Shown here: positions 3,208-43,913 of the stretch, in pieces | How the letters are laid out: each line of letters begins with the position of its first letter | How positions within the stretch are numbered: the stretch's first letter is position 1 | Source of the DNA: Bacteroidales bacterium | GTDB lineage: Bacteria; Bacteroidota; Bacteroidia; Bacteroidales; M50B96 | Length of the DNA: 64,000 nt | Direction: 5' to 3' | NCBI GenBank assembly: GCA_018401015.1 | Contig: JAGYLP010000004.1 | Coordinates: 83,307-147,306, forward strand | The notes under the pieces: generated by a model | What the model saw: the letters and a program-made list of their open reading frames with translations, nothing else | Database searches by the model: none | What the model was told of the DNA's origin: nothing | Program-made: the position numbers and the translations under genes

Positions 3208-4068
3208 ATGAGACAGTTAAAGATTACCAAATCTATTACGAACCGTGAGAGTGCATCGCTTGACAAATACCTTCAAGAGATAGGGAAAGAAGAGCTAATT
3301 ACTGTCGAAGAAGAAGTAGAACTTGCCCAACGAATTAAAAAAGGAGATCAAACTGCCCTTGAAAAGTTGACCAGAGCTAATCTAAGATTTGTTGTATCCG
3401 TAGCAAAACAGTATCAAAATCAAGGTCTAAGTCTCCCCGACTTAATTAATGAAGGCAATCTTGGCCTGATTAAAGCAGCAGAAAAGTTCGATGAAACCCG
3501 TGGTTTTAAGTTTATCTCTTATGCCGTGTGGTGGATTCGTCAATCGATTCTGCAAGCTTTAGCCGAACAATCGAGAATCGTACGCTTACCGCTGAACCAG
3601 GTGGGTTCCTTGAACAAAATCAACAAAGCCTTCTCTAAATTTGAGCAAGAGCACGAACGAAAACCATCACCTGAAGAGCTAGCCGAAGTCCTCGATTTAC
3701 CAAAAGAAAAAGTAGCCGATACCCTCCGTGTTTCCGGAAGGCACGTATCGGTCGATGCTCCCTTTGTTGACGGAGAAGAAAACAGCCTGCTCGATGTTTT
3801 GCCGAACAACGATTCGCCAAACGCCGACCGCACACTGATCAACGAATCCTTAAGCAAAGAAATCGATCGGGCATTAGCAACCTTAACCGAAAGAGAACGC
3901 GACATTATCCGCCTCTTCTTCGGAATCTCCAGTCAAGAAATGACCTTGGAAGAAATTGGTGAAAAATTCGGATTAACCAGAGAACGAGTTCGACAAATTA
4001 AAGAAAAAGCGATTCGGCGCTTACGACACACCTCACGAAGTAAATTATTGAAATCGTATTTAGGATAG
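3208..4068 (+). CDS. rpoD: principal RNA polymerase sigma factor (RpoD/SigA), short Bacteroidota form
   Basis: This is the primary sigma-70 factor that directs RNA polymerase to housekeeping promoters. At 286 aa it lacks region 1.1, as is normal in Bacteroidota. Region 1.2 lies at ~10-45, region 2 at ~55-125 ([15 protein letters not shown], then [20 protein letters not shown]), region 3 at ~125-200, and region 4 at ~215-280 with the helix-turn-helix [21 protein letters not shown]. The sequence from MRQLKITKS to SKLLKSYLG is very close to what I recall for Bacteroides RpoD, which separates it from the divergent paralogue at 42925-43791. It is monocistronic, with a strong terminator just after it. 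Confidence 0.95.
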
Positions 4069-4986: not shown

Positions 4987-6081
4987 TTATGCGTTCACAT
5001 CCATTTCGTTCAAGCGAGCTGAGTTCTCTTCCATTTGTAGCTTTTCGATAATATGATCGATATCACCATCGACAATGGCAGGCAAATTATACAAAGTCAA
5101 ATTAATCCGATGATCGGTAACACGACCTTGAGGCCAATTATACGTACGGATTTTTGCCGAGCGATCGCCCGTAGAAACCATGGTTTTTCGCTTGGAAGCT
5201 ACTTCGTCGATGTATTTTTGGTATTCCAAATTGTAAAGCCGTGTGCGCAATTCGGCTAAGGCTTTATCGTAATTCTTCAACTTCGATTTCTGATCCTGAC
5301 ACTGCACCACAATTCCGGTTGGAATATGCGTTAAGCGAATAGCCGAATACGTTGTATTCACCGACTGTCCGCCAGGCCCCGAGGAGCAAAATTCATCACG
5401 ACGAATATCTTCCATTTTCAGGTCGATATCGAATTCATCGGCTTCGGGCAAAACAGCTACCGAAGCAGCCGAGGTATGCACCCTGCCCTGTGTCTCGGTT
5501 TGCGGCACACGTTGCACACGATGAACACCCGACTCGTATTTCAACACGCCGTAAACTCCGTTGCCCGATACCGTGGAAATAATTTCCTTGTAACCACCTA
5601 CTGTTCCCTCGGTAAAAGAACTCACTTCGAGTTTCCAGCCTTTGCTCTCACAATATTTGGAGTACATCCGGAAAAGATCCCCGGCAAAAATACTAGCCTC
5701 ATCGCCTCCGGTACCGGCACGTATCTCCAATACAGCATTCTTATCGTCCTCGGGATCTTTCGGAATGAGCAGCATTCGAATCTCTTGCTCAATTTCAGCT
5801 TTACGTTCGGTCATCTCATCGATTTCCAACTTAGCCATCTCGCGTAACTCCTCGTCCTTTTCATCTTGTAAAAGCTCGCGGGCAGAACGCAAATTATTAA
5901 GCACTTGTTTATACTCGGTGTAGCTATTCACCAAGGGTTCCAAATTTCGATACTCTTTGTTTAACTGAACAAAGCGTTTCATATCGGAAATCACATTCGG
6001 ATCGGTTATCAGAACACTTACTTCTTCGAACCGAAGTTTAATTGATTCCATTCTATCGAGAAAGGCACTATCTGAACTCAT
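4987..6081 (-). CDS. prfA: peptide chain release factor 1
   Basis: RF1 recognises UAA and UAG and releases the finished peptide. The 364-aa protein has the family layout: N-terminal coiled coil (~10-105), RF domain with [18 protein letters not shown] (123-140), the codon-reading tripeptide in the PQTETQGR region (~193-200; RF1-type context rather than the SPF of RF2), and the GGQ motif at 237-240 (GPGGQSVNT). It is 14 bp downstream of purM and 9 bp upstream of pyrF, so the three are probably cotranscribed. Confidence 0.95.
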
Positions 6082-27289: not shown

Positions 27290-29758
27290 ATGAAATACCT
27301 CAAAATTGTTTTACCCATTTATCTTCCAACAAGCCTAACCTATGCTGTGCCCAACGAACTGGTAAGCGAAGTGGCCATTGGGAAACGTGCGATCGTTCCC
27401 TTGGGTAAATCGAAACTCTACACAGGAATCATCTGGGATTGGGACGATAAGCCTGTGCCGGATATTAAGTATAAATCCATCCTCGAAATAATCGACCCGG
27501 AACCGCTCATTCATGAAAATCAACGAAAATTTTGGGAGTGGATAGCCGAATACTACCTATGCTCGCTGGGGGAAGTGATGAAAGCTGCCATGCCGGCCCC
27601 ATTTAAGCTAAGCTCCGATACCTTTGTTAAACTGACCCCGCAATTCGAAATGGACTTCGCGGAAGATATGCATTCGCTATCGCCGGCGGAAGAAGGGACG
27701 CTCGCTTTGCTTCGACAGGAAGCAGTAACTTTAGCAAAACTGGGCAAATACCTGAACCTCAAAAACCCTCTAAGCATTGTAAAAAAACTGATGGAACGAA
27801 ACTGGGTGGAGACCATAGAAGAAGTGAGGCCTCCCTTTAAACCGAAATCCATCAAAATAATTAGCCTAAATATCCCCCCGGACGACGAACAGCTTTCCCC
27901 TCTGATCGAATCCATGAATAAGGCAAAAAAACAACAACAAATCCTCTTACACCTACTCGACCCGGAGCATTGGGAATTCAATGGAAGTGAGCCAACAATT
28001 AGTCAAAAGGAATTATTGATTCGCTTCCCCGGCTCTCTGGGAGCCATTAATGGATTGATTAAAAAAGGAATTCTGGCACGCACCGAAATTCCCGAATCGC
28101 AATTAATCCAAACGGAAACGAATCAGCTTACCCTCCCTCAGCTTTCAGATGAACAGCAACAGGCGCTCGAAAAAATTACTGCCTCTTTTACAGAAAACAA
28201 ACCCGTTCTACTTCATGGCATTACAGGTAGTGGTAAAACCGAAATCTACATTCAACTCATCCGCGAAGCACTCGCATTGAATAAACAAGTCCTTTACCTG
28301 CTGCCGGAAATAGGACTCACCACACAAATTATCGGGAGGCTGGAACAGGTTTTTGGGAATACTATTTTGGTTTACCATTCTCGTAATTCCGAAAATCAAC
28401 GAGCCGAGATTTATCAAAAAGTGGCCAAAAATCACTCCCATCCTCAGCTCATTGTAGGAGCTCGCTCGGCCCTCTTTCTGCCTTTCAACCAATTAGCCCT
28501 ATTGATTATCGACGAGGAACACGACAGCAGCTACAAACAACAATCGCCTGCTCCACGGTATCAAGGTCGCGATATGGCTCTCGTGCTGGCAAAACGACAT
28601 CAAGCCGGCATCGTTATGGGTAGCGCTACTCCATCGCTGGAATCCTATGCCCTTTCCCTTGCGAAGCGGTTCACCTACATTCAGCTTAACGAACGCTACC
28701 ACCAAAGCAAGTTACCCAGCGTTCAACTTATCGACCTAAAGAAGGAAAGACTGAAAAAAAAGCTTCAAGGTAGTTTTAGCCTCAAACTAATCGATACCAT
28801 GAAGGAAACCCTTGAAAACCAAGAACAGGTAATGCTCTTCCAAAACCGTCGGGGTTTTAATCCTTACCTCATTTGTCCCGATTGCGGACATATCCCAAAA
28901 TGCAAGAACTGCGATGTGAGCCTCACCTATCACCGATTTCAGCATGCGATGGTTTGCCATTATTGCGGACACCGCGAAGCTCCTATAAAGGAATGCAAAG
29001 CCTGTGGTTTTCATCCGATTCAGTTCAAAGGATTAGGAACTGAAAAGATCGAAGAAGAGATACAGGAATTGTTTCCAAAGGCTAAAGTGGCCCGTCTCGA
29101 TCTCGACACCGCCCGAAGCAAAAAAAATTACGAGCGGATCCTGGAGGAGTTTGCGAATCGGAATATCGACATCTTAGTTGGCACTCAAATGATTAGCAAA
29201 GGACTTGATTTCAGTGCCGTAAGCCTTGTTGGGATTATAGATGCCGATTTACTGCTCAATTATCCCGATTTCCGATCGGCCGAGCGAAGTTTTCAACTCA
29301 TGGTGCAGGTTGGAGGCCGATCGGGTCGCAGAGAAAAGCAAGGTCAGGTTCTCATTCAAAGCTCCAATCCGGATCATCCGGTGCTGGAATGGGTAATAAA
29401 AACAGATTATCAGCAGATGGCTGACCACTTATTACACGAACGCAAACTCTTCCATTATCCACCCTATACCAGGCTCGTCCAAATTATACTTCGTCACCGA
29501 AACGAAAACGCCGTGGTCGAGGCGGCCGATTTCTTTGCGCAAATCCTCCGACAGGAATTTCACGAATACCTCCTGGGGCCGGAAATTCCTGCAGTTTCCC
29601 GGATACAAAACTTCTACATCAGGAATTTAATCCTAAAAATCCCCCGGAGTAAACCCAATCAATCCATCAAAGAATTTCTCCAACAGCAACGAAATTGGAT
29701 GCTTGAAAAACCTCGTTTCAAAAACCTTCAAATCTACTTCGATGCCGATCCACAATAA
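27290..29758 (+). CDS. priA: primosomal protein N' (PriA helicase)
   Basis: PriA restarts collapsed replication forks. The 822-aa protein has the N-terminal 3'-DNA-binding domain (start KYLKIVLPIYLPTSLTYAVPNEL), Walker A GITGSGKTEIY, the DEEHD box (IIDEEHDSSYKQQ), GSATPSLES, two zinc-binding clusters in CPDCGHIPKCKNCDVSLTYH and CHYCGHREAPIKECKACG (eight Cys), and the helicase motifs GTQMISKGLDF and QVGGRSGR. Length is normal. It converges on the TonB-dependent receptor gene across a hairpin. Confidence 0.95.
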   Translation: MKYLKIVLPIYLPTSLTYAVPNELVSEVAIGKRAIVPLGKSKLYTGIIWDWDDKPVPDIKYKSILEIIDPEPLIHENQRKFWEWIAEYYLCSLGEVMKAAMPAPFKLSSDTFVKLTPQFEMDFAEDMHSLSPAEEGTLALLRQEAVTLAKLGKYLNLKNPLSIVKKLMERNWVETIEEVRPPFKPKSIKIISLNIPPDDEQLSPLIESMNKAKKQQQILLHLLDPEHWEFNGSEPTISQKELLIRFPGSLGAINGLIKKGILARTEIPESQLIQTETNQLTLPQLSDEQQQALEKITASFTENKPVLLHGITGSGKTEIYIQLIREALALNKQVLYLLPEIGLTTQIIGRLEQVFGNTILVYHSRNSENQRAEIYQKVAKNHSHPQLIVGARSALFLPFNQLALLIIDEEHDSSYKQQSPAPRYQGRDMALVLAKRHQAGIVMGSATPSLESYALSLAKRFTYIQLNERYHQSKLPSVQLIDLKKERLKKKLQGSFSLKLIDTMKETLENQEQVMLFQNRRGFNPYLICPDCGHIPKCKNCDVSLTYHRFQHAMVCHYCGHREAPIKECKACGFHPIQFKGLGTEKIEEEIQELFPKAKVARLDLDTARSKKNYERILEEFANRNIDILVGTQMISKGLDFSAVSLVGIIDADLLLNYPDFRSAERSFQLMVQVGGRSGRREKQGQVLIQSSNPDHPVLEWVIKTDYQQMADHLLHERKLFHYPPYTRLVQIILRHRNENAVVEAADFFAQILRQEFHEYLLGPEIPAVSRIQNFYIRNLILKIPRSKPNQSIKEFLQQQRNWMLEKPRFKNLQIYFDADPQ

Positions 29759-29854: not shown

Positions 29855-32293
29855 TTAAAAATGAACCGTAATACCTCCCATAAAGTGAATGCCTGCTTGC
29901 GGGAAATAATAAGCCCAGGTCCGCTCATCGTAGTTCTCCGGCTGCCCTTGTGTCAAGGTGGCATTTTCATACCAAACTCCACCGTAGGCATTGCTAACAT
30001 AAGTGGCATTGAACAGGTTCTTTACCTGGAAGCGAAAATCAATTTGCTTAAACACCCAGTTTTCAACCGAATAATTCAAAAACAAATGATTCACCCAGTA
30101 ATCCGGCAACATTCTGTCCGGACTTGAAGAGTTATCGAAATACTGCTCCCCAACGTATTTGCTTAAAAAGCTAACCTGAAAATTTCGAAACGGTCGATAA
30201 TCAAGCTTACTATTGAAAATAATTTCCGGCGAGTAAGATATGTGTGTGGAGCCTAGTTCGCGACCTACAAAATATTCATCCCAGTTCTCATCATAGTAAG
30301 CGGCATATTCGGTAAAATTCAAGATTCGATTCCGACTCAGGGTTACATTTCCCTCCCACGATAAGTTAGCAGGAAGTTTAACCCCTCCAATCACCTCAAT
30401 TCCCACTCGATACGACTCAGCCACATTGGTCTTAATATCGTAACCCACAGCACTCTTCTCTCCGGTAAGTACCAATTGGTCGGTATAATCCATGTAATAG
30501 GCATTTAATCCAAGACTGAACCGAGAATGATTCATGCGGTAGCCCAGCTCATAATCATCCAAGCGCTCGGCACGTGGGGTTGCCAATAAATCGCCAGTCG
30601 CCTCTTTAAAATCGGCACGGGTCGGCTCACGATGTGCCACACTATAAGAGGCATAAACCTGATTAGCCGAATTTAACTGATAACTAAATCCGACTTTGGG
30701 ATTGAAGAAAGCATAAGCATGGTGCTGAGCTAAATCTTTTAAATCATCGTCGATCCCACTCATGGTATATTCGATGCTTCGATACTGAAGGTCGCCAAAT
30801 AGGTTTAATCCCTTGTATATAGTGTAAGTTGCTTTTACGTAACTACTGAACTCCGTTTTTAATCCATTATTGAAATACCATTCATAATCTTTCGGCACCC
30901 CCGGATTATTTTCAAGCCAAATGAGTTTTCCAAAGTGGTCGCCATCGTACTGACTCCATGCCGCTCCAGCGTTCATTTCTAAAGCATCCCGCCTAAAAAT
31001 TAAATTGGCCGTTCCTCCATAAAAATAATTCTTCATCCATTTTTGACGAATCACATCGCTTATAACCTCGATATAACCCGGAAAATAGTGCCCGATGCCG
31101 TAATCGCTCAAGGTTTCATCGTCGCGAACCTGCTCATAATACCCTTCGCCCGGAGTGAGGTGCAAGGCTGTATTGAACGACCACTGATGATTCAACTGCT
31201 GCGAATAATGAAGCTGATAATGAGTCTGACGATAATTATCGGTTGCTCCACGATGGTATTGCTCATTTCCTTCGGCATCGTAATAAACGCCTGCCGGATT
31301 AAACTGCGGATTCACCTCGAGCGAATCGGCGGGAACCCCCCACCAGGTAATTCCAGTCCGCTGATCACCATGAATGACTGTTGCTTTGAGTAAACTGTTT
31401 TTTCCATGATAATTGGCACTCAAATAAAGCGACTGATGGTCGGCAAATCCATAATTAACGTAACTATCTGCATTCAAGCGAGAATAACGTCCTTCGAGGG
31501 AAAAACGATTGTTAATCAAACCGGTACCCATAGCCAGGTTGTTTCGAAAGGTATTGAACGAACCCATGCTGGAGCTCACACGCGCATAAGCTTCTTTGCT
31601 CGACTGCGACGTTTGGAAATTGATGCTGGCTCCAAAAGCAGCAGCTCCATTCGAGGAGGTTCCTACACCTCGTTGTACCTGAATATTATCGACCGATTCG
31701 GTAAAATCCGGCATGTTAACCCAAAAAACAGTGTGCGACTCGGAATCGTTTAGCGGAATCCCATTAATCGTCACATTGATGCGACTAGCATCGGTTCCCC
31801 GAATACGAAAAGCAGTATTGCCAACCCCAAATCCCGACTCGGAATTTTCGACCAGGCCGGGAACCATCGTCAGCAGAAAAGGAATGTCCTCGCCCACATA
31901 AGCCTCACGGATGGTTTTCTTCGATAATTCAGTGTAAGATACCGGCATTTTTTCATTTGCCCGCGTACCTTGTACAATCACTTCATCGGTAAGAAAAGTG
32001 CGCTCCGGAAGGGTTATGGTCAACTCGACGTCTTCCTGCAAATCGACCACAACAGCATGATCCTGATAACCCACAAAGCTCACCTGCAACTCATAGCTGC
32101 CAGGCCTGAGATTATCCAACACAAAACGCCCTTGAGCATCGGTAGAACTACCGACATAGGTGTTTTTTAAAATAACACTGGCTCCGGGCAATGTCTTGCC
32201 ACTCGACTCCAGTACCGTTCCAACAATTTGCAATTGAGATAAAACAGTTAATCCAATCAATTGCAATACGAACAATAATCCAATTCGTTTCAT
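29855..32293 (-). CDS. TonB-dependent outer-membrane receptor, probably for thiamin compounds
   Basis: This is an 812-aa receptor: signal peptide (~1-19), carboxypeptidase-regulatory-like domain (~22-100; VGTVLESSGKTLPGASVILKNTYVGSSTD), plug domain (~115-225; ETIRGTD-like FRIRGTDASRINVTINGIPLND), and a 22-strand-type barrel to the terminal Phe (MGGITVHF). No SusD gene is adjacent, so it is not a glycan-type SusC. A TPP riboswitch lies in its leader (32341-32422), so the gene is controlled by thiamin pyrophosphate and the substrate is probably thiamin or a precursor. This substrate call rests on the riboswitch, not the protein sequence. TPP riboswitch-linked TonB receptors are known in Bacteroidota. 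Confidence 0.92.
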   Translation of the reverse strand: MKRIGLLFVLQLIGLTVLSQLQIVGTVLESSGKTLPGASVILKNTYVGSSTDAQGRFVLDNLRPGSYELQVSFVGYQDHAVVVDLQEDVELTITLPERTFLTDEVIVQGTRANEKMPVSYTELSKKTIREAYVGEDIPFLLTMVPGLVENSESGFGVGNTAFRIRGTDASRINVTINGIPLNDSESHTVFWVNMPDFTESVDNIQVQRGVGTSSNGAAAFGASINFQTSQSSKEAYARVSSSMGSFNTFRNNLAMGTGLINNRFSLEGRYSRLNADSYVNYGFADHQSLYLSANYHGKNSLLKATVIHGDQRTGITWWGVPADSLEVNPQFNPAGVYYDAEGNEQYHRGATDNYRQTHYQLHYSQQLNHQWSFNTALHLTPGEGYYEQVRDDETLSDYGIGHYFPGYIEVISDVIRQKWMKNYFYGGTANLIFRRDALEMNAGAAWSQYDGDHFGKLIWLENNPGVPKDYEWYFNNGLKTEFSSYVKATYTIYKGLNLFGDLQYRSIEYTMSGIDDDLKDLAQHHAYAFFNPKVGFSYQLNSANQVYASYSVAHREPTRADFKEATGDLLATPRAERLDDYELGYRMNHSRFSLGLNAYYMDYTDQLVLTGEKSAVGYDIKTNVAESYRVGIEVIGGVKLPANLSWEGNVTLSRNRILNFTEYAAYYDENWDEYFVGRELGSTHISYSPEIIFNSKLDYRPFRNFQVSFLSKYVGEQYFDNSSSPDRMLPDYWVNHLFLNYSVENWVFKQIDFRFQVKNLFNATYVSNAYGGVWYENATLTQGQPENYDERTWAYYFPQAGIHFMGGITVHF

Positions 32294-32340
32294 ACAAAAA
32301 TGGTTTAAAGATTATTACTATTGCAATGAAGGGCGATCAT

Positions 32341-32422
32341 GTGCATGTTCCCTGCGCCGGCATTATCCGTATCAGGTTCAAAGGGTATGATCTCAGCCTG
32401 AAAGTAAGGCACCCCCATCGAC
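32341..32422 (-). promoter_or_regulatory. TPP riboswitch (THI element)
   Basis: Read on the minus strand, all conserved blocks of the thiamin pyrophosphate aptamer are present in order: GGGGGTGCC, GGCTGAGATCATACCC, GAACCTGATACGGATAATGCC and GGCGCAGGGAACATG. These are the P2/J/P3 pyrimidine-sensor and P4/P5 diphosphate-sensor elements. The aptamer ends about 50 nt before the receptor ATG, and no T-tailed hairpin is seen between them, so control of translation start is more likely than early termination (inference). Confidence 0.95.
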
Positions 32423-32426
32423 GTGG

Positions 32427-32459
32427 CAAAGGTAAGCACTTTGTTTTACCACATCCAAA
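32427..32459 (-). promoter_or_regulatory. promoter of the riboswitch-receptor transcript
   Basis: On the minus strand a perfect -7 box TACCTTTG (plus-strand 32427-32434) stands 21 bp after TTTG (plus-strand 32456-32459). Transcription would start at about 32420, exactly where the TPP aptamer begins. It lies in the short gap after pdxH, so the receptor has its own promoter. Confidence 0.7.
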
Positions 32460-32475
32460 AAAATTTAAACAAAAA

Positions 32476-33123
32476 TTAAGGTGCCAAGCGACGATTTTTC
32501 CAAATACCCGCCGACAAGTAAAATTCAATGCGGTCGTGCAACCTGTTCTCTCTTCCTTTCCAAAATTCAATACGCGAAGGCTGAATAAAATATCCACCCC
32601 AGAAATCGGGACGTTTGAGCGTTTCGGCCGTAAACCGTTCTTCCATTTCTTTTACCCGATGCTCTAAAAATGCTCTGTCGGGTATCATTTTACTTTGAGG
32701 AGAAGCCCATGCACCAATTCGGCTCCCGTGTTGACGCGATTCGAAATAATCGTCGGAAACTTCCGGCTCGGCCTTTACGGTCAACCCTTCAATCCGAATT
32801 TGCCTTTCAAGCTCCGGCCAGTGAATGTTCACCGCAACCCTCGGATTAACGGATAATTCATGAGCCTTCCGACTAGTGTAATTGGTGAAGAAATAGATCC
32901 CTTCGCTTCCAATTTTCTTTAACAAAACAACCCGCGACGAAGGATTCCCTTTAGAATCGACCGTGGATAAAACCATGCTATTGGGTTCAGGCTGACCGGA
33001 TGCAACCGCCTCGTCGAGCCACTGTTGAAAAAGATCCATCGGCTGAACCGAAGAAGACAAATCCTCTAAGCTACTCTGCTTGATTGCTTGAATCAAGGTT
33101 AATCTATCTGTATTACTGCTCAT
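32476..33123 (-). CDS. pdxH: pyridoxamine 5'-phosphate oxidase
   Basis: PdxH oxidises PNP or PMP to pyridoxal phosphate using FMN. The 215-aa protein shows the family pattern: PNSMVLSTVDSKGNPSSRVVLLK, FFTNYTSRKAHELSVNPRVAVNIHWPELERQIRIEG (FMN binding), YFESRQHGSRIGAWASPQS, and the C-terminal block RPDFWGGYFIQPSRIEFWKGRENRLHDRIEF. The length is normal. It lies just upstream of the TPP riboswitch, with 17 bp from its stop to the -33 box of the next transcript. Confidence 0.95.
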   Translation of the reverse strand: MSSNTDRLTLIQAIKQSSLEDLSSSVQPMDLFQQWLDEAVASGQPEPNSMVLSTVDSKGNPSSRVVLLKKIGSEGIYFFTNYTSRKAHELSVNPRVAVNIHWPELERQIRIEGLTVKAEPEVSDDYFESRQHGSRIGAWASPQSKMIPDRAFLEHRVKEMEERFTAETLKRPDFWGGYFIQPSRIEFWKGRENRLHDRIEFYLSAGIWKNRRLAP

Positions 33124-37069: not shown

Positions 37070-37336
37070 ATGGAAAAGAGAATAGGTACTGCCATTATCG
37101 TTATTGAACAATCGGAATCGGTCGCTCTCGTGAACCATGCCCTTTCCCGGCATAATCCGATCATTTTTGGCCGTCAGGGAATCCCTCTCCATTCCAAATT
37201 ACTGAACATCATTTCTGTCGTTCTAATCGGTACAACCGACGAAATCGGCTCACTTACCGGTCAGCTAGGTAAAATCGCCGGAGTGCATGTGAAATCTGCC
37301 CTCATCAAAAACTCCGATTTACAAGAAAAACTTTAA
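37070..37336 (+). CDS. TM1266-like iron-only hydrogenase system regulator
   Basis: This is an 88-aa ACT-like protein starting at ATG 37070 (MEKRIGTAIIVIEQSESVALVNHALSR), with GRQGIPLHSKLLNIISVVLIGTTDEIGSLTGQLGKIAGVHVKS. This is the signature of the small putative regulator encoded beside [FeFe]-hydrogenase maturation genes. A longer frame opens at 36824 but runs over the start of glmM and is not convincing. A GGAGG Shine-Dalgarno (37057-37061), rare in this phylum, supports the chosen start. hydG follows after 11 bp. Confidence 0.85.
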   Translation: MEKRIGTAIIVIEQSESVALVNHALSRHNPIIFGRQGIPLHSKLLNIISVVLIGTTDEIGSLTGQLGKIAGVHVKSALIKNSDLQEKL

Positions 37337-37347
37337 GCCATAACACC

Positions 37348-38775
37348 ATGATCTTTAATCCCGAAAAATGTCGCATCGCCGACCGTCCACATCAAGCATT
37401 TATCGACCCACAAGAAATTGCCGACCACCTCGGTGAAGCCAAACCAACCAAAGAAAATATCGAAGCCATTCTCGATAAATCCCGAAATAAAAAACGCCTA
37501 ACCTTAGCCGAAACAGCTACCCTGCTACAAGCCGACGACCTGGAAATGATTGAATTAATAAAAGAAACGGCCCGCGAACTGAAAAAAACAGTTTACGGCA
37601 ACCGGATTGTTCTTTTTGCTCCTCTCTATATCGGAAATAAATGCACCAACGATTGCACTTACTGCGGATTTCGGGTGAGTAACAAAGAGGCCGAACGCAA
37701 AACTCTCAACGAAGAGGAAATCATCCACGAAGTAGAAGCACTTGAGGATGAAGGGCATAAACGACTCGTTCTAGTTTATGGTGAGCATCCCGAATACGAT
37801 GCCGAATACATTGCTCATACTACCCGATTGGTTTATTCCGTCAAGAAAGGGAAAGGTGAAATTCGCCGCGTGAATATAAATGCAGCTCCTCTCGATGTGG
37901 ACGGTTTTAAGGTTGTGAAGGAGGCTGGAATTGGAACCTATCAAATTTTTCAGGAAACGTATCATCCCGAGGCCTATAAAAAATACCACCCGCGTGGACG
38001 AAAAAGCAACTACGAATACCGACTCACAGCACTCGACCGTGCTCAGGAAGCCGGAGTGGACGATGTGGGAATAGGAGCTCTTTTCGGCCTCTACGACTGG
38101 AAATTCGAAGTAATGGCCCTCGTTCGACACACCATCCACCTGGAAGCTTGTTACCAGGTTGGTCCCCATACCATTTCCTTCCCCCGCATTCAAAATGCTT
38201 CCTCCTTAAGCGATAAAGGAAAATATCTTGTAAACGACCACGACTTCATTCGGCTCATTGCCATTTTACGACTTGCCGTTCCATACACAGGACTAATCCT
38301 TACTGCCCGCGAAAACCCCTTCGTTCGACGAGAAGTAATTCAATTCGGCGTTTCCCAAATCGATGGAGGAACTAAACTGGAGCTGGGTGCTTATTCAAAA
38401 TCAAAAAATGAACAACAAGATTTAAACAAAGAACAGTTTCAAATAAACGATTCGCGTTCCCTCAACGAAATTATCGATGAGCTAATCAGCGATGGTTTTC
38501 TTCCTTCCTTCTGCACCTCATGCTACCGGAAAGGACGAACCGGAGAACATTTCATGGAGTTTTCGATTCCAGGTTTTATCAAACGATACTGTACTCCCAA
38601 TGCAATCCTTACCCTAGCCGAATACCTCGAAGATTACGCTTCGGAAGAAACAAAGGAAAAAGGATACCGCATCATTCAACGAGAACTCCAACAACTCAAT
38701 AACCCAAAACTAATGACTCAAATGGATAAACGGCTTGGAAGCATTAAAAATGGGGTGCGCGATTTAAACTACTAA
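37348..38775 (+). CDS. hydG: [FeFe] hydrogenase maturation radical-SAM enzyme HydG
   Basis: HydG splits tyrosine into p-cresol, CO and cyanide, the source of the CO/CN ligands of the H-cluster. The 475-aa protein shows the radical-SAM motif CX3CX2C (C99, C103, C106) and, at the C-terminus, the HydG-specific CX2CX22C (C389, C392, C415) for the second 4Fe-4S cluster. The rest follows the family (QETYHPEAYKKYHPRGRKSNYEYR). This pair of motifs separates HydG from its relative ThiH. hydE and hydF are not in this window; the preceding gene is the TM1266-like regulator. Confidence 0.95.
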   Translation: MIFNPEKCRIADRPHQAFIDPQEIADHLGEAKPTKENIEAILDKSRNKKRLTLAETATLLQADDLEMIELIKETARELKKTVYGNRIVLFAPLYIGNKCTNDCTYCGFRVSNKEAERKTLNEEEIIHEVEALEDEGHKRLVLVYGEHPEYDAEYIAHTTRLVYSVKKGKGEIRRVNINAAPLDVDGFKVVKEAGIGTYQIFQETYHPEAYKKYHPRGRKSNYEYRLTALDRAQEAGVDDVGIGALFGLYDWKFEVMALVRHTIHLEACYQVGPHTISFPRIQNASSLSDKGKYLVNDHDFIRLIAILRLAVPYTGLILTARENPFVRREVIQFGVSQIDGGTKLELGAYSKSKNEQQDLNKEQFQINDSRSLNEIIDELISDGFLPSFCTSCYRKGRTGEHFMEFSIPGFIKRYCTPNAILTLAEYLEDYASEETKEKGYRIIQRELQQLNNPKLMTQMDKRLGSIKNGVRDLNY

Positions 38776-42924: not shown

Positions 42925-43791
42925 TTAATCACCTAAAAATGACTTCAGCTGGTTCCCTCTATTCGTGTTCTTAATGCGCCGTAGTGCGCGCTCCTTTATC
43001 TGCCTTACCCGCTCACGGGTTAACTCAAGGCGTTCTCCAATCTCTTCCAGGGTGGAAGGCTTCCTCCCGTTTAATCCATAATAATGCCTTAGTACATAGG
43101 CTTCACGAAAGGTTAAGGTATGAATAGCCCGATCTATTTCCTTCTGCAAACTTTGCATGATCAAATTTCGGTCGGGCAACCTATTTTCATCGACCAATAA
43201 AAGATCGTACAAAGTCCCATCCTCGTCGGAAAGTAAGGGCGCATCGAGCGAAAGGTGCCTTCCACTACTACGCAAAATCAATTTAATATCCTTCGGTAAC
43301 ATATCCAGAACCAAGCCTACCTCCTCACTCGTGGGCTCCCGCTCAAACTGCTGCTCTAAAATGGAAAGGGTCCGATTGATTTTATTGATGGAGCTGATTT
43401 TATTCAAAGGTAAACGCACTATGCGAGCCTGTTCTGCAAGCGCTTGCAAAATGGATTGCCTAATCCACCAAACCGCATAAGAAATGAACTTGAAACCACG
43501 TGTTTCGTCAAACCGCTTCGCAGCTTTAATGAGCCCTAAATTCCCTTCGTTTATCAAATCCTGCAAGCTAAGCCCCTGATTCTGATATTGTTTTGCGACA
43601 GATATAACAAACCGCAAATTGGCATTGATCAATCGTTCCAAGGCAGCATCATCTCCACCCCTAATTCGTTTGGCTAATTGAACCTCCTCCTCTACTGAAA
43701 TCAACTCCATCTTACTAATATCCTGCAAATACTTATCGAGCGAAGGGGCTTCGCGGTTGGTTACTTGTTTGGAAATTTTGAGTTGACGCAT
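42925..43791 (-). CDS. second RpoD-like sigma-70 factor
   Basis: From ATG 43791 ([22 protein letters not shown]) the protein is 288 aa, nearly the same length as RpoD at 3208. Regions 1.2, 2 ([57 protein letters not shown]), 3 and 4 ([21 protein letters not shown]) are complete. It diverges mainly in region 3 and the linker ([28 protein letters not shown]), so it is a paralogue rather than the primary factor (inference from similarity to Bacteroides RpoD). An alternative start seven codons upstream adds MKNKHFN. It is divergent from rho. Confidence 0.9.
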
Positions 43792-43913
43792 ATTAAAGTG
43801 CTTATTTTTCATAAACCCCTAATTACCAACGCATTTAGAGGGATTTCGACTATTCGTAAAAATAAGGATATATTCTCCCTAAAAAAATACTTCCACAATC
43901 TTTTTCTTTTTTT

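Follow-up and report, generated by a model that had tools for sequence, protein, structure and literature searches.

A TPP riboswitch-linked receptor of the OMthi type in a Bacteroidales bacterium and a candidate TPK-free route of thiamin salvage

What does a TonB-dependent receptor gene import when it lies behind a TPP riboswitch, and how would its substrate become TPP in a genome where ThiC, ThiE and TPK are not found? This question was raised by a locus in the window (the whole 64-kb stretch of Bacteroidales DNA analysed in this study). The features of the locus are listed in Table 1. An earlier note, made by reading the sequence, had described a complete TPP aptamer directly behind a promoter box with TTTG 21 bp upstream, and both parts of this description were confirmed. 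The covariance-model search (cmscan) returned a full-length match to RF00059 (model positions 1-105), whose 62.7 bits exceed the gathering score of 54.3, and this aptamer was the sole Rfam match in the window. Its P1 is weak, with non-standard pairs marked there by the Rfam alignment.

Table 1. Features of the receptor locus and its neighbours (window coordinates)
Feature	Position	Strand	Basis or remark
priA	27290..29758	+	Convergent downstream neighbour; translation recognised by eye
TonB-dependent receptor, 812 aa, OMthi-type	29855..32293	-	Pfam domains, TPP link of orthologues, structure model
Leader, 37 nt, from aptamer to ATG	32294..32330	-	Without intrinsic terminator
3' flank AUGAUCGCCCUUCAUUG	32324..32340	-	Candidate anti-aptamer strand, prediction only
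TPP riboswitch aptamer RF00059	32331..32426	-	cmscan 62.7 bits, E 6.2e-10
Promoter, Bacteroidota-type	32427..32459	-	TTTG 32456-32459, spacer 21 nt, TACCTTTG 32427-32434
pdxH, pyridoxamine 5'-phosphate oxidase	32476..33123	-	Upstream neighbour on the same strand; membership in the unit not claimed

The pattern TTTG-N19-21-TAnnTTTG occurs once on the two strands of the window, directly before the aptamer. Because about 1.4 chance matches are expected per 64 kb, the sequence of the box alone means little, and its placement before the aptamer is the informative part. TAnnTTTG was present upstream in 32 of 36 TPP-receptor sites (the window site and 35 from relatives), compared with 3.0 in shuffles, and in 31 of those 32 sites it ends 0-12 nt before the aptamer. 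Since the position of the box is conserved, the transcript probably begins within the 5' side of the aptamer.

The leader between the aptamer and the ATG contains no terminator-like site, which speaks against control by intrinsic termination. Folding predicted that the 3' flank of the free leader can pair with the 5' side of the aptamer and with J2-3; AUGAUCGCCCUUCAUUG complements both the 5' GAUGGGG and the GAUCAU of J2-3. RNA folding of the bound and free aptamer gave no clear difference in access to the start codon. In Bacteroides thetaiotaomicron, the OMthi mRNA is unaffected by thiamin (PMC5613172). Because the leader lacks a terminator and the OMthi mRNA is unchanged in that species, regulation of translation is a likelier reading than regulation by termination. 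The switch would presumably act in the OFF direction, with TPP shutting the receptor gene.

The receptor carries a CarbopepD_reg domain (aa 23-107), a Plug domain (114-222) and a barrel (333-760), all over the Pfam cut-offs. The earlier description of a TonB-dependent receptor without a SusD partner agrees with these domains: no SusD gene stands beside the receptor gene, and the next gene downstream is the convergent priA. The gene stands alone in the window, with neither pnuT nor TPK as a neighbour. Three known receptor classes were considered and rejected. A SusC/RagA glycan receptor was excluded by a TIGR04056 score of 70 against a 368-bit cut-off and by the absent SusD neighbour, a BtuB cobamide receptor by a TIGR01779 score of 37 against a 600-bit cut-off, and a haem receptor by model scores well under the cut-off.

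Elsewhere in the window, two RpoD-like sigma-70 factors of 286 and 295 aa are encoded at 3208-4068(+) and 42925-43812(-). HydG, an [FeFe]-hydrogenase maturase, is encoded at 37348-38775(+) (TIGR03955, 516 bits), and the small ORF ending at 37336 just upstream of it was recognised by eye as a TM1266-like regulator. Neither HydE nor HydF was seen among the listed ORFs.

A scan of genome contigs yielded 80 orthologous receptors, 39-51% identical to the window receptor. A TPP element was found just upstream in 78 of them, from several Bacteroidota orders. The other two (L015 and L021) are cut by contig ends, so that all 78 testable orthologues are linked. The covariance model used for these loci was made with the window sequence and four loci as seeds. 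Those four match by construction; none of the other 74 contributed to the model. A strict aptamer regex, which hit 4 of the 80 loci, had given the picture of a family mostly not linked to TPP, and the covariance model exposed this as an artefact of sensitivity. Conversely, most of 40 TPP sites of order-level relatives lead to this receptor family 10-110 nt downstream, and the remaining sites precede mainly thiamin synthesis genes. At L023, tandem matches to the TPP model (5617-5727 and 5858-5966) lie ahead of one receptor.

The neighbourhoods of the orthologues also point to thiamin. Both pnuT and TPK lie near the receptor at L002-L007, L016, L018, L019, L021 and L118. The order is TPP-receptor-PnuT-TPK at L118 and again in Marinifilum, Labilibaculum and Puteibacter loci, and TPP-receptor-PnuT at L117. 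Costliow and Degnan reported that a B. thetaiotaomicron biosynthesis mutant needs more thiamin once OMthi (BT2390) is deleted (PMC5613172). Because the TPP link, the PnuT-TPK operons and this phenotype agree, there is good support for uptake of thiamin through the outer membrane by the window receptor, as judged from gene sequence and context.

Structure prediction gave the receptor an unremarkable barrel of the TonB-dependent kind (pLDDT 85). The nearest solved barrel folds are cofactor and siderophore receptors, with PqqU/YncD first at about 16% identity. PqqU/YncD is a receptor for PQQ, another cofactor, and its likeness to the model may serve as a lead to function at most. These folds would also suit a receptor for a siderophore or cobamide, whose TPP element merely coordinates import with central metabolism. 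We consider this highly improbable, however, in view of the complete TPP link among testable orthologues and the operons with PnuT and TPK.

The rest of the pathway was then sought in the genome to which the window belongs (2.88 Mb, 99% complete). No match to ThiC (PF01964), ThiE (PF02581) or TPK (PF04263) was found in it, and the organism appears to be unable to make vitamin B1. The earlier note had held that the receptor most likely imports thiamin or a precursor. The thiamin part of this claim stands; import of a precursor is less likely, because, with ThiC and ThiE not found, the normal means of coupling an imported pyrimidine or thiazole would be missing. YjbQ/UPF0047 proteins can act as TMP synthase, and one such gene (G000:C2:32400-32747) is present. 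It was set aside as the source of TMP since the family is widespread and ThiC is absent; a weak TMP synthase from YjbQ may exist, and it would need imported pyrimidine.

ThiL was found on contig C10 (302 bits). Contig C2 carries one PnuC-family (PnuT-like) gene, directly followed, with an overlap of 4 nt, by a gene for a 173-aa AAA_28 kinase of the NadR-like P-loop type; the YjbQ gene lies about 8 kb from this pair. The remaining pathway is thus located away from the receptor, as had been expected. The accompanying idea of a TPP-linked inner-membrane transporter elsewhere failed: no second TPP element was detected at E 0.001 across the genome, and the PnuT-like gene and the kinase are not under such an element.

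From these parts we propose a salvage route with riboswitch feedback, to which we assign a probability of roughly 0.6; within it, the substrate of the receptor and the activity of the kinase are what we infer from sequence. When TPP is scarce, the riboswitch would permit synthesis of the receptor. Powered by TonB, the receptor would move thiamin (or TMP) into the periplasm, and the PnuT-like facilitator on C2, which carries the name PnuC, would admit thiamin to the cytoplasm. The NadR-like kinase would trap thiamin there as TMP, and ThiL would convert TMP to TPP. TPP would then bind the riboswitch and turn the receptor gene off.

The kinase step is the part that departs from annotation. The kinase is a relative of the NadR ribosylnicotinamide kinase by sequence and predicted fold (family profile against 8X7F, E 3e-28; predicted-fold TM 0.87), and NCBIfam names the carrier PnuC; on both counts the default annotation is NAD salvage. 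An OMthi-type receptor could indeed coexist with a PnuC-like gene and a NadR-like kinase that serve nicotinamide riboside salvage, thiamin being phosphorylated by another, unrecognised kinase. The best structural and sequence relatives of the kinase, the NadR RNK domains, favour this explanation, as does the name of the carrier. However, TIGR01528 ("nicotinamide riboside transporter PnuC") is assigned both to the carrier gene at L082:1480-2058(+), which the kinase gene at L082:2055-2573 follows, and to the PnuTs of TPP-linked operons (L161 and L117). The name therefore does not discriminate, because both kinds receive it. In the tree, whose deeper branches are partly supported, the C2 carrier groups with the PnuTs of TPP-receptor/TPK operons and apart from the solved PnuC 4QTN.

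The distribution of the kinase was examined in 60 relatives from 59 genera, with the kinase counted at E 1e-20 or better. It was present in 31 of the 60 genomes and TPK in 8, and the two never occurred together (Fisher p 0.0017). The kinase was also depleted where ThiE was present (odds ratio 0.056, Fisher p 9e-6, 60 genomes); both tests ignore kinship. A test on a ThiL tree gave the same direction in 4 well-supported independent pairs (median p 0.5), on a poorly resolved tree with too few pairs for significance. All 31 kinase genomes contain a PnuC-family gene, and 22 of the 60 genomes combine the TPP-receptor and the kinase without ThiE or TPK. A point against the proposed route is that neither kinase nor TPK was found in five auxotrophic genomes at least 90% complete (G005, G006, G046, G056 and G059); the missing TPP element at the PnuT-like gene and kinase of this genome is another.

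Gene order gave a further indication. At seven loci in other lineages, PnuC and the kinase end 30-114 nt before a TPP-receptor unit on the same strand, and at eight further loci the pair lies within about 4 kb of such a unit. Together with the mutual exclusion of kinase and TPK and the depletion beside ThiE, this adjacency in several lineages speaks against nicotinamide riboside salvage, which we regard as unlikely. Related ORFs of about 355-375 codons, most of them with an MRPPRF motif at the N terminus, separate the PnuC-kinase pair from the TPP-receptor unit at L034, L037, L038, L044, L053, L054 and L069.

ThiL was present in all 60 relatives, TPK in the 8 counted above, and ThiC and ThiE were not found in the organism's own genome. 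These data would also fit import of TMP itself, which would pass straight to ThiL and make a thiamin kinase unnecessary. This explanation, however, leaves the distribution of the kinase unexplained, and PnuT transports free thiamine in a heterologous host, as cited in PMC5613172. We judge import of TMP to be improbable.

Our preferred reading remains salvage of thiamin through the PnuT-like carrier and the kinase. No NadR-like thiamin kinase was named in the literature searched, which lay mostly outside subscription journals. We put the odds at about even that, in thiamin-auxotrophic Bacteroidota, the step of the missing thiamin kinase is carried out by the stand-alone NadR-like kinase, paired with the PnuT-type carrier; it would replace TPK and supply TMP for ThiL. 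The genome comparison thus offers a testable answer to how Bacteroidota without thiamin synthesis and TPK make TPP. If it is true, genes named PnuC and NadR-like are vitamin B1 genes. Their annotation would then change in many environmental Bacteroidota, for which B1 auxotrophy and NAD salvage would also be predicted differently.

Compared with known systems, the riboswitch-receptor unit is, on its sequence features, a further member of the OMthi type and of a known kind. A TPP-linked thiamin TonB-dependent receptor of the omr1 type was reportedly predicted by Rodionov et al. in 2002. The unit shares with the OMthi (BT2390)/PnuT/Tnr3 system of B. thetaiotaomicron the TPP riboswitch, the TonB-dependent receptor and, at a separate place in the genome, an inner-membrane carrier of the PnuT type. 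As for differences, the window receptor, likened to BT2390 by type, has an N-terminal carboxypeptidase-regulatory domain. B. thetaiotaomicron makes thiamin and has TPK (tnr3) behind pnuT (PMC5613172), whereas here ThiC, ThiE and TPK were not found, the PnuT-like gene lacks a TPP element, and a kinase of the NadR-like type stands in the place of TPK. With the NadR ribosylnicotinamide kinase domain (1LW7, 8X7F and 6GYE), the C2 kinase shares the fold (TM 0.80-0.87) and the P-loop motif, but it is a stand-alone protein without the NMNAT domain, and its neighbourhood and distribution track thiamin salvage. The C2 carrier shares PF04973 (E 1.8e-8) with the nicotinamide riboside transporter PnuC (4QTN), but it falls on the side of the TPP/TPK-operon PnuTs, with a support of 98/99 for the separating branch. 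What these comparisons suggest beyond the known OMthi type is a TPK-free salvage route with a candidate NadR-like thiamin kinase.
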